Position numbers and translations under genes: made by a program. The notes beneath the pieces were generated by a model. That model searched no databases. It saw nothing but the letters and a program-made list of their open reading frames with translations, and had not been told where the DNA came from. Below, piece by piece: positions 16,319-50,427 of a stretch of 64,000 nucleotides of DNA; positions within the stretch are counted from its first letter, which is position 1; each line of letters opens with the position of its first letter. Source of the stretch: Geminicoccaceae bacterium (GTDB lineage Bacteria; Pseudomonadota; Alphaproteobacteria; Geminicoccales; Geminicoccaceae); NCBI GenBank assembly GCA_028279345.1, contig JANQNY010000056.1, positions 1 through 64,000 of the forward strand, written 5' to 3'.

Positions 16319-16446
16319 GAGCGAGCATCGTCCGTTCATCTCGGACCAGCGCCACCCTCGCGCCCGCCCTACCGCGCGCGAGCGTTCGGTAGCATCGGGC
16401 GTTAGGGCGGGACGAGGGTGGTTCCAGCCAAAAAAACTGTTCTAGA
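16319..16446. repeat. palindromic intergenic element, copy 1
   Basis: About 128 bp, related to the element at 43852-43980. The inner stem pairs CCACCCTCG..CCCGCCCTA (16352-16371) with TAGGGCGGG.CGAGGGTGG (16403-16421), about 18 bp with a small bulge. The right flank GGTTCCAGCC-AAAAAA-CTGTTCTAGA matches GGTTCCAGTCG-AATTAAAA-CCGCTCTAGA of copy 2. The left flank TCCGTTCATCTCGG matches TCCGTCCACGTCGG. Its right end supplies the TAG stop of the adjacent minus-strand reading frame. The left boundary is approximate because the outer inverted repeat has decayed there. Confidence 0.7.
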
Positions 16447-16856
16447 CGCCGTGCATTCGCAGGAGCACCTGCATCCGCGACCGCGCCAAGTCTGAGTCGT
16501 CCGGCAAGCCCGCCTGCTCCCCATAGGCGGCGACTAAGGCGTCAAGCGTCGCCGGGGCCTCGTCCAGCTGATCGGTACTCCCCCGGTCTACGGTTGCCTG
16601 AGACGTCGCGCTTCCATTGTTGAAGGGTAGCTGGGAGATCGCGATGACGGACGAGATGGTGGCGAAAGCGCAGCGTCGCATCCCAGTCGAAGACCACGTC
16701 CGCTGGGCTTGTCGTGCGCCGCGGGTCGATAGTCACGTGGGCCGCGTAGACGCGGCGCGAAACTGGGGGTCCGGTGGTTCGAGGGAAGGGCGGCCGGCCG
16801 CTCAGCCGTTAGGGTTCCAGGCGCCCTGCCGCCGTCGGCAGATCAATCATCGTCAT
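16442..16856 (-). pseudogene. decayed DUF993 (dihydrodipicolinate-synthase-like) gene
   Basis: From an ATG at 16856 the minus strand reads MTMIDLPTAAGRLEP, hits TAA at codon 16 (16809-16811, where DUF993 proteins have Tyr), then continues in the same frame through RRVYAAHVTIDP and VVFDWDATLRFRHHL, as at a DUF993 N-terminus. The middle of the usual roughly 380-residue protein is missing. In another frame the last 40 codons read LDALVAAYGEQAGLP and DLARSRMQVLLRMHGV, resembling a DUF993 C-terminus, and end at a TAG inside the repeat element. So there is one nonsense mutation, a large deletion and a frame change. The family call is from memory of its conserved segments. Confidence 0.6.
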
Positions 16857-43039: not shown

Positions 43040-43063
43040 CACTGGGCCCGTTCGGGCCTAGTG
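43040..43063. terminator. hairpin after the aminotransferase gene
   Basis: CACTGGGCCC-GTTC-GGGCCTAGTG pairs over 10 bp with one G-T pair, 43 bases after the stop. No T-run follows, so any intrinsic termination would be weak. Confidence 0.35.
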
Positions 43064-43096
43064 TCCGGCCGCGGGGGCCCACAGGAGGACACATCA

Positions 43097-43855
43097 ATGA
43101 GCAGCGACCAGCCGGCGCTCCAGGCTTGGCTCTTCGATCTCGATGGCGTGGTGACGGATACGGCAGCCATCCACGGCGTCGCCTGGAAGGCTTTGTTCGA
43201 CCGCTTTCTCGAGCACCGGGCCGGAGGCGGCGAATACGTGCCGCTGAAGCTGCCGGACGACTATCTCGAGCACATCGACGGCAAGCCGCGCTATGAGGGC
43301 GTGCGCGACTTCCTCGCCTCACGGGGCGTGACCCTTCCCTGGGGCACGTCCGACGACGGGCCGGGTTTCGAGACGTTCTGCTCGGTCGGCAACATGAAGA
43401 ACGACCTCTTCAACGAGATCCTCGATCGCGACGGTGTGCCGGTCTTCGAGGGTGCCGTGCGCCTGCTCGACCACCTCAAAGCCGCAGGCATCAAGACCGC
43501 GTGCGTCTCCTCCTCGCGCAACTGCCGGCCGGTCCTGAAGCGCTCCTCGCTCGACGACCGCTTCGACACCGTGATCGACGGCATCGACCTCGAGACGCGC
43601 AACATCCGGGGCAAGCCCGAGCCCGAGGCGTTCCTCACCGCCGCCAAGGAGCTGGGCGTTGCGGCGGAGAACGCGGTCGTCCTCGAGGATGCGCTCGCCG
43701 GCGTCGAAGCTGGTAAGCGCGGCGATTTCGGGCTTGTCGTCGGCATCGATCGCGGTGCAGGCCGGCAGGCGCTCTTGGATGGTGGCGCCGACGTCGTCGT
43801 CGAGGACGCGGGCGAACTGCTCGATCAGCCGGCGGTGATGGAGCGGGTCCGCTAG
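43097..43855 (+). CDS. HAD hydrolase, beta-phosphoglucomutase-like
   Basis: A 252-residue haloacid dehalogenase family protein. Motif I FDLDGVVTDTA (nucleophile Asp and acid Asp), motif II ACVSSSRN, motif III KPEPEAF (Lys) and motif IV LEDALAGVEA are all present; the cap region is residues 20-110. It resembles the beta-phosphoglucomutase family often found with trehalose or maltose phosphorylases, absent here. CAGGAGG precedes the ATG. The TAG stop lies within the first bases of the palindromic element. Confidence 0.88.
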   Translation: MSSDQPALQAWLFDLDGVVTDTAAIHGVAWKALFDRFLEHRAGGGEYVPLKLPDDYLEHIDGKPRYEGVRDFLASRGVTLPWGTSDDGPGFETFCSVGNMKNDLFNEILDRDGVPVFEGAVRLLDHLKAAGIKTACVSSSRNCRPVLKRSSLDDRFDTVIDGIDLETRNIRGKPEPEAFLTAAKELGVAAENAVVLEDALAGVEAGKRGDFGLVVGIDRGAGRQALLDGGADVVVEDAGELLDQPAVMERVR

Positions 43856-43980
43856 AGCGGTTTCCGTCCACGTCGGTGCAGCACCACCCACGCCCCCGCC
43901 CTTCCGCCCGATGGCATCTTGAGCTCGCGGGCGGAAGGGCGGGGGCGTGGGTGGTTCCAGTCGAATTAAAACCGCTCTAG
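43852..43980. repeat. palindromic intergenic element, copy 2 (intact)
   Basis: A 129-bp element. The outer inverted repeat CTAGAGCGGTTT (43852-43863) matches AAACCGCTCTAG (43969-43980). The inner stem is perfect over 28 bp (43883-43910 against 43928-43955) with a 17-base loop. The TAG in each outer end is the stop codon of the flanking gene: the HAD gene on the plus strand (43853-43855) and the DUF4336 gene on the minus strand (43977-43979). It can act as a bidirectional transcription barrier between the convergent genes. It has no coding capacity, so it is a MITE or REP-like sequence. Confidence 0.85.
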
Positions 43981-44660
43981 ATCCAAGCCAACGCGTCGGC
44001 GATGACCTTGGTGGCGCCGGTCTCCACGCAGGTTCCGTGCGCGATGAGCAGGCGGTCCGCGTTCCATCCCAGGATCTTGGCGCGCGCCTCTCGGGCGGCG
44101 TGGTGGCTGAGGAAGCTCAGGCGCCAATCCAGCGGTGTGGTCCCGTGCTCGCCGACGACGCCGCCGAGGCGCATCACGGCGCCCTTCCAGCCGGCGAACT
44201 GCTCGGCGGGATTCCGCTCGATCAGGTCGCCCATGATCACCGTCCGAGAGGGGCGGTGAAAGAACACGACCTCTTCTAAGAGGACCGAGCCGCGGAAGAC
44301 GACTTGGTCGATTTCGCCCGCCCACGCGGGGGCAGGCTCGTCGCCGAGTTCCGCGTCGACCCGGAGTTTGGGCTTCTTCGCAGCAAGCCCGGGCGGCAGG
44401 TAGACACGGGCGTCCGGCCACCGGTCCGCCCACTCGGCCAGGAAAAGGTAGTGGATCTTGTTGGGCGAGACGAGGTGCCCAACGGGTCCGATGCTCTCGA
44501 CCTCGCGAGCCAGCTCGTCGCTGAGCGCTACGGGCGACCAAACCCACACGCTACGGTCGGCGAGGTGCGCCACGGCCATCCGTGTCTGGAGGGGGAGGCC
44601 GTAGAATGAGACGGTCGGCCCGTCGGCGAAATAGAGCGAGGATCCGAACGGCTGCAACAT
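43977..44660 (-). CDS. DUF4336 family protein
   Basis: A 227-residue protein resembling the metallo-beta-lactamase-like DUF4336 family: SVWVWSPVALSDEL, HLVSPNKIHYLFLAEW, DARVYLPPGLAAKKP, EIDQVVFRGSVLLEEVVFFH and TVIMGDLIERN. It probably acts as a hydrolase-fold protein of unknown substrate. The ATG at 44660 is preferred; a GTG immediately upstream would add one residue. Its TAG stop is supplied by the palindromic element, so the last codon before it abuts the insertion. Confidence 0.8.
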   Translation of the reverse strand: MLQPFGSSLYFADGPTVSFYGLPLQTRMAVAHLADRSVWVWSPVALSDELAREVESIGPVGHLVSPNKIHYLFLAEWADRWPDARVYLPPGLAAKKPKLRVDAELGDEPAPAWAGEIDQVVFRGSVLLEEVVFFHRPSRTVIMGDLIERNPAEQFAGWKGAVMRLGGVVGEHGTTPLDWRLSFLSHHAAREARAKILGWNADRLLIAHGTCVETGATKVIADALAWI

Positions 44661-44719
44661 CACCGAAGTGTAGCATCGCTGCGCCTGGGCCGTAACCGTC
44701 GGCGATCACCGGCGGCGGC

Positions 44720-50260: not shown

Positions 50261-50427
50261 GCGACGGTAGCCACCTCGGCCGTTGGTCAACAATCGTCCC
50301 TGGGACCTGCTGCGCAGGTGGGCGCCGTAATACCGTGGCCAGGGCCGCGGCAGGGACAGCTCCCGTGGGAACGACTTAGGCCCAGGTGCATGATCAGCGA
50401 CCTGACGTACCAGCCAGCCACCGCCGC
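50261..50427 (-). ncRNA. ssrS: 6S RNA (ssrS)
   Basis: About 167 nt on the minus strand between zapA and the cyclo-ligase gene, the conserved 6S locus. The ends pair as a closing stem: GCGGCGGUGGC with GCUACCGUCGC, 11 bp with two G-U pairs. Inside, CCUGGGCC pairs with GGUCCCAGG, and ACCUGC-GCA-GCAGGU forms a hairpin, leaving an open internal region as expected for RNA polymerase binding. The boundaries come from the closing stem and are not mapped. Confidence 0.72.

Follow-up and report, generated by a model that had tools for sequence, protein, structure and literature searches.

At one point of a 64,000-nucleotide stretch of DNA from a Geminicoccaceae-like alphaproteobacterium (hereafter the window), two convergent genes end within the two tips of a single palindrome. 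This arrangement raised the question of what kind of element the palindrome is, how it came to hold both stop codons and what it does to the genes that end in it. A sequence-only reading of the window had proposed a mobile or REP-like family whose CTAGA ends tolerate, and may favour, insertion at gene 3' ends, while providing a stop and a transcription barrier in both directions.

The structural part of that reading was confirmed. The element is 129 bp long, and both its 28-nt inner stem arms, separated by 17 nt, and its 12-nt outer arms (43852-43863 and 43969-43980) are 100% complementary. In each outer end, TAG is indeed a stop codon: that of the plus-strand HAD gene on the left and that of the minus-strand DUF4336 gene on the right (Table 1). 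The 129 bases folded as single-stranded DNA at -55.9 kcal/mol (z -10.9, equalled by 0 of 200 shuffles), and a z of about -11 versus shuffles was obtained for the element folded either as DNA or as RNA. The Rfam gathering scores were reached by no model for the element; the Rfam matches to the hairpin were hairpin-shaped models below their cut-offs and were set aside as noise. Elsewhere in the window, a 6S RNA (RF00013) was located at 50264-50423 and a tRNA gene (RF00005) at 55-127, both on the minus strand.

A second palindrome of the window had been taken for a related copy that likewise ends a minus-strand frame. It was found to be related, with 73% identity to the window copy and a stem with mismatches, and its right CTAG does terminate a 79-aa minus-strand ORF; this ORF is a putative gene only.

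Table 1. Positions of the element, its parts and the adjoining genes in the window.
Feature	Position	Strand	Basis or remark
Complete element with flanking C-TA and TA-G	43852..43980	no strand	sequence, repeat analysis, family members
Left target duplication TA (putative)	43853..43854		sequence; flank combinations of G010 copies; with G43855 gives the TAG at which the HAD gene stops
Right target duplication TA (putative)	43978..43979		with C43977 gives the minus-strand TAG at which the DUF4336 gene stops
Left terminal inverted repeat GAGCGGTTT	43855..43863	+	
Right terminal inverted repeat (minus-strand GAGCGGTTT)	43969..43977	-	
Left (C-rich) inner hairpin arm	43883..43910		
Loop, 17 nt	43911..43927		diverged; differs from the family loop ATGGCATCGTACGCTCG by 3 mismatches
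Right (G-rich) inner hairpin arm	43928..43955		G-quadruplex-capable by pattern
HAD-like hydrolase gene (PF00702)	43061..43855	+	TAG 43853-43855 in the left end of the element
DUF4336 gene (PF14234)	43977..44663	-	TAG 43977-43979 in the right end of the element
Second, diverged copy	16319..16446		core 16351-16422; right CTAG 16442-16445
79-aa ORF, putative gene	16442..16681	-	TAG stop 16442-16444 within the right CTAG of the second copy

Copies, ends and empty sites

The genome that contains the window (G000) holds about 30 copies of the element family. About 22 distinct places were found by BLAST of the element, and a covariance model (R1) made from 21 of these places recovered at least 30 places at E <= 2e-4 and at least 32 below 0.002, with 150 of 5777 candidates scored. 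The exact outer 12-mer CTAGAGCGGTTT, which the sequence-only reading had suggested as a probe, was present in the window copy alone. Therefore, an exact 12-mer search would miss the family, and the inner hairpin is the part by which the copies can be found. Most own-genome copies had ATGGCATCGTACGCTCG or a close variant as their loop. About ten own-genome copies formed a second subfamily resembling the copies of a genome of the same genus (G001). A third copy on the contig of the window was located just beyond the window end (G000:C28:65311-65377).

Further, R1 detected copies in at least 8 of the 115 genomes, a count that includes the own genome, with part of the candidates scored. Ninety-two copies in seven genomes were read together with their gene context (G000, 32; G001, 16; G010, 21; G058, 8; G031, 7; G089, 4; G112, 4); contig-end copies were mostly left out of this set, and only part of the R1 places in the other genomes was taken. 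The 127-bp copies at different places of G010 were up to 99.2% identical, indicating a recent spread. Plasmid and phage collections contained no match to the element. The exact loop pattern was found in five stretches of the genome_contigs collection; two were real, in the Geminicoccaceae MAG DLM2.Bin45, and the other three had no stem. When two mismatches were allowed in the loop, three matches appeared in G005 and G025 and were rejected as false. Some copies were accompanied by other small hairpins, one of which was inserted in the right arm of L035 (G010:C90, about 2000) as a repeat within a repeat, and extra ones stood beside the large hairpin at L218, L064, L071 and L134.

The element was about 127-129 bp in size, non-coding and bounded by terminal inverted repeats. 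The well-kept copies of G000, G001 and G010 had ends of the form Y-TA-GAGCG...CGCTC-TA-R, and the ends of some copies had decayed. The left and right flanking tetranucleotides varied in G010 (CTAG/CTAA, TTAG/CTAG, CTAC/CTAG and CTAG/CTAG, among others), TA alone being shared. The end pattern TAGAGCGTTTYCCG, with one mismatch allowed, was recorded in G010 at least 100 times in the forward and at least 100 times in the reverse orientation, versus 1 and 2 times for the reversed control. The G058 copies L066, L072 and L124-L126 had the same hairpin core with the ends GAGACCGTTTGAG and TNA-like flanks (TGA/TGA, TCA/TCA), hence a different transposase may be used there.

The expectation that relatives would hold empty sites was borne out at some loci. 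The joined flanks of eight own-genome sites were aligned to 30 genomes, the own genome included, and empty sites were found in relatives at three of them, namely L005 (DctQ/DctM), L016 (Maf/CoaE) and L025 (NusB/AIRS, ThiL-like). The alignment ran through the junction for L005 in G010 and for L016 and L025 in G001 and G010, plus further relatives. At L016 and L005, a gap of about 124 bp coincided with the upstream gene's stop codon; the alignment of L025 was looser near the gap. At the other five sites, the window copy included, the flanks matched only separately and never as one piece in any listed relative. The empty sites carried TGA stops or substitutions at the junction, which blurred the exact target, and the flank combinations of G010 agreed on TA.

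Stop codons and genes around the element

The use of TAG was compared between the genes whose ends lie no more than 45 bp from the hairpin and the other predicted genes. The TAG shares were 23/42 versus 15/63 in G000 (Fisher p 0.0013), 9/11 versus 5/43 in G001 (p 1.7e-5) and 7/11 versus 4/43 in G010 (p 4.5e-4). A TAG stop was situated at an element end in 19 of 32 copies of G000, 8 of 16 of G001 and 7 of 21 of G010, and four G000 copies had one at both ends. Outside predicted gene interiors, stop codons made up 4 of the 17 CTAG sites of the window and 5 of the 21 from the flanking sequences of G001 and G010. Against a null of 0.24, which was small and rough (the 4/17 CTAG sites of the window, with gene calls from a simple codon-score script), copies at stops were in significant excess in G000 (2e-5), weakly so in G001 (0.02) and not in G010 (0.22). 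The proposed affinity for gene 3' ends thus stood as to the presence of CTAG-type ends there, with an excess that was clear in G000 alone. The preference holds mainly through the CTAG target and the survival of harmless insertions.

The protein ends of own-genome genes were then set against those of relatives. They lay at most 4 residues apart in 15 of 17 comparisons and at most 1 residue apart in 13 of 17, the exceptions being 10 residues (the HAD gene versus G012) and 7 residues (L115). The stop codons of the relatives in these comparisons were TGA in 12 and TAG in 5. Since the gene ends were unchanged, the element entered existing stops, and because the insertion requires TA, the ancestral stop of the own gene was probably TAG or TAA.

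The neighbours of the 92 copies were in 39 cases convergent, in 41 on the same strand and in 7 divergent; the other 5 (3 copies in G010 and one each in G000 and G001) had neighbours lost to contig ends or undetermined calls. In the own genome, no copy of 31 was placed between divergent genes, and 15 of 31 stood between convergent ones versus 9 of 61 adjacent gene pairs in the window (p 0.0008). Copies were also found inside same-strand pairs, e.g., Maf/CoaE, NusB/ThiL-like and DctQ/DctM. At L016, L025, L005, L014, L020 and L120, the next gene on the same strand started at or near the far end of the element; where a gene begins at that end, its ribosome-binding region must be in the element or missing.

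Two readings would give the palindrome a part in ending genes or transcripts. According to one, the element shortens (or lengthens) genes by giving a new stop codon, which would agree with the location of the stops in the element ends and with the G010 copy L097, where one predicted frame enters the element and stops inside. The closely kept protein ends, including exceptions of no more than 7 and 10 residues, make this explanation highly improbable. Hence, the claim that the element provides the stop was retained in that it carries stops on both strands, and revised in that it lands on existing stops and re-forms TAG rather than newly supplying it. According to the other reading, the palindrome is not mobile but a bidirectional transcription terminator or RNA hairpin of the host, favoured by selection where genes end, as the great stability of the hairpin and the convergent excess in the own genome might suggest. 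However, no intrinsic terminator (a hairpin and then a T-run) was seen in the window copy, relatives had empty sites, and the family showed terminal repeats and near-identical copies. Moreover, copies were inserted in same-strand pairs ahead of likely essential genes (CoaE, ThiL-like), and A.C mismatches in the own-genome stems outnumbered G.T ones (29 versus 13, the outermost pair contributing part of the A.C), so that no RNA wobble preference was apparent. We consider a terminator or RNA role of this kind unlikely. The suggested transcription barrier in both directions gained no support either: the same-strand insertions before CoaE and the ThiL-like gene speak against a full barrier, save for a possible internal promoter. 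No promoter was found in the AT-rich loop of the window copy.

Candidate transposase partner and proposed route of insertion

One PF13358 gene was detected in each of G010, G000 and G001. The one in G010 (contig C242) was a frame of an IS630-family transposase (NF033545, 148 bits at a cut-off of 100; also PF13358). It is a remnant, partial at its start and matching model positions 113-298 of 299. The last 24 bp of the frame, TAG included, matched the right end of the MITE in G010 at all positions (24/24), and the two differed elsewhere; no left element end was found at the remnant, the match being one locus and the right end only. The frame (L231, 381-1019) itself ends in a TAG formed at the element end. 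The single PF13358 hit of the own genome (97% complete, 87 contigs) was without matching ends, and the partner transposase may have been lost there or may be unassembled. The element works like an IS630-mobilised MITE, a likeness that stops short of a proven dependence in the own genome.

Other transposases were weighed as well. The IS5 family targets YTAR or TNA, and a MITE mobilised by an IS5-family transposase would account for the YTAR-type ends, for the TNA-like flanks in G058, which fit IS630 poorly, and for the CTAG that flanks the IS5-type elements of G058. However, those G058 elements that could be delimited have other terminal repeats, G010 has no PF13340 gene despite the at least 100 forward and at least 100 reverse matches of the end pattern, and the matching end in G010 is carried by the IS630 gene, which makes an IS5 partner improbable. 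IS5 genes were found (PF13340, PF01609) and set aside as the mobiliser on the strength of the G058 elements whose ends were read. A REP/BIME-like palindrome propagated by a RAYT (TnpA-REP) transposase would share with the element the palindromic form, the many copies and the location at the 3' ends of genes and within convergent pairs, as passages of PMC3733652 describe for the CGTC-tagged alphaproteobacterial REPs, for which no dedicated transposase is known there. In contrast, these REPs are 20-40 bp in all and have a CGTC tag and a CCA tail (same passages), whereas the element has a stem of 27-28 bp with a 17-nt loop and terminal inverted repeats with TA-type flanks. At the stem base, CGTC was recorded in 0 and GTAG/GGAG in 4 of 92 copies, and no RAYT gene (PF01797) was found in the own genome, the control genomes being positive. 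Spread as a REP is scarcely credible; the mobile half of the original proposal was sustained by the copies and the empty sites, and the REP half was abandoned.

We proposed that the element is very probably a MITE of the IS630 (Tc1/mariner) type, mobilised in trans into the TA of CTAG/YTAR and surviving at stops and between genes. An IS630-family transposase would move it into TA, preferring CTAG/YTAR, and the TA would be duplicated. Since both ends of the element begin with G, an existing TAG or TAA stop entered at its TA would be restored as TAG, on either strand. CTAG is TAG on both strands, hence convergent genes overlapping in CTAG could accept the element without loss to either, and the window copy probably entered such an overlap. 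Selection would remove the insertions within genes, so that the surviving copies would be enriched at stop codons and between genes. The family, its ends, the TA-type flanks, the three empty sites, the unchanged gene ends and the 24-bp end on the IS630 remnant are directly supported.

Several known repeats resemble the element in part. To our knowledge, the ERIC and Correia (NEMIS) repeats are unrelated to it in sequence and are without its G/C-run pattern, a distinction made by description and not by alignment. Like the element, they are palindromic, MITE-like and intergenic, with lengths of roughly 100-155 bp (described partly in passages of PMC2229807). The same source mentions the CIR repeats of Caulobacter, likewise alphaproteobacterial intergenic repeats with stem-loops. 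The CIR repeats are tied to GANTC methylation sites; they were set apart by description, not by sequence. RUP of Streptococcus pneumoniae, an IS630-Spn1-dependent MITE, is similar in being a 107-bp non-coding element with IS630 ends at TA, and differs in belonging to another phylum and in that no long conserved hairpin of such kind is mentioned in the passages of PMC2229807. For the IS630/Tc1-mariner elements themselves, passages of PMC2170065 report insertion of IS630 and ISY100 into TA with TA duplication, and a title in its reference list (Tenzen and Ohtsubo 1991) names an IS630-associated composite transposon with preferential transposition to TA in 5'-CTAG-3'. The element agrees with them in its TA-type flanks, which would reflect a duplicated TA target, in the CTAG preference and in the 24-bp end of the G010 remnant; it differs in its size of about 127 bp, in being non-coding and in its long inner hairpin, which was not found in the IS630 remnant. 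A triplex-repeat family was dropped as a candidate, its motif requiring three blocks according to passages of PMC4666352.

The inner hairpin across the class

The pairing of the inner stem was examined in an alignment (A4) of 20 hand-picked copies from seven genomes. The 27 pairs were standard in 96.5% of cells, a value favoured by the choice of high-scoring copies, and nineteen of the pairs were C:G with few exceptions. Cells changed on both sides numbered 75 versus 22.5 in shuffles (sequences being counted, not events); 73 of the 75 fell at eight spacer positions (columns 4, 5, 9, 11, 17, 21, 22, 25), and G-U cells amounted to 3 of 540. The less selected set of BLAST-found own-genome copies (A2) contained 28 double-change cells versus 9.8, again counted as sequences and not events, and 27 of them were at the same eight positions. 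The stem mismatches in A2 were A.C in 29, G.T in 13 and others in 29 cases, the outermost pair accounting for part of A.C. The hairpin stem shows no wobble preference.

Four G-runs fitting the G-quadruplex pattern were present in 84 of 92 copies, as a raw pattern count that was not normalised for composition. In 6 of the 21 G010 copies, the loop lay in the opposite orientation to the arms, which suggests that it had flipped between the two halves of the 27-bp palindrome. Perfect arms together with inverted loops can arise through template switching on palindromes, and those seen here can be fitted to it.

A second model (R2) of the inner hairpin, with part of the candidates scored, detected it in at least 30 of 385 genomes of the class, the own genome included, in 20 families by family labels. 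Nineteen R2 loci were read with codon-score gene calls; most were near gene 3' ends and five were between divergent genes. TA-type terminal repeats were present at some of these loci and none were seen at others. It is possible, though doubtful, that the hairpin is an undescribed DNA module of the Alphaproteobacteria, a 27-bp palindrome whose arms read CCnnCCCnCnCCCCCnCCCnnCCnCCC around a loop that contains ATA, with perfect pairing maintained in the DNA itself and with fixed, G-quadruplex-capable G-runs. Such a module might be recognised by a protein or by the replication apparatus and be combined with different terminal repeats by lineage, and it would either make MITEs successful or be a captured host site.

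IS630-type MITEs are already known (RUP), as are palindromes located where convergent genes end (CGTC REPs). What is new here is the class-wide inner hairpin with its fixed G/C runs, compensated spacer pairs and no wobble preference; no description of this hairpin family was recognised among the titles and passages of the open-licence literature. A term search of a review of prokaryotic MITEs found 'stop codon' absent from its main text (PMC10969869).

A target that is a stop on both strands, together with ends that rebuild the stop, would offer a transposable element a simple route into compact genomes. The element may also be one cause of the fragmented assemblies in such genomes. The class-wide hairpin, with its fixed G-runs, compensated spacers and frequent loop inversion, would represent a testable constraint at the level of DNA, not RNA, or a product of template-switch repair.
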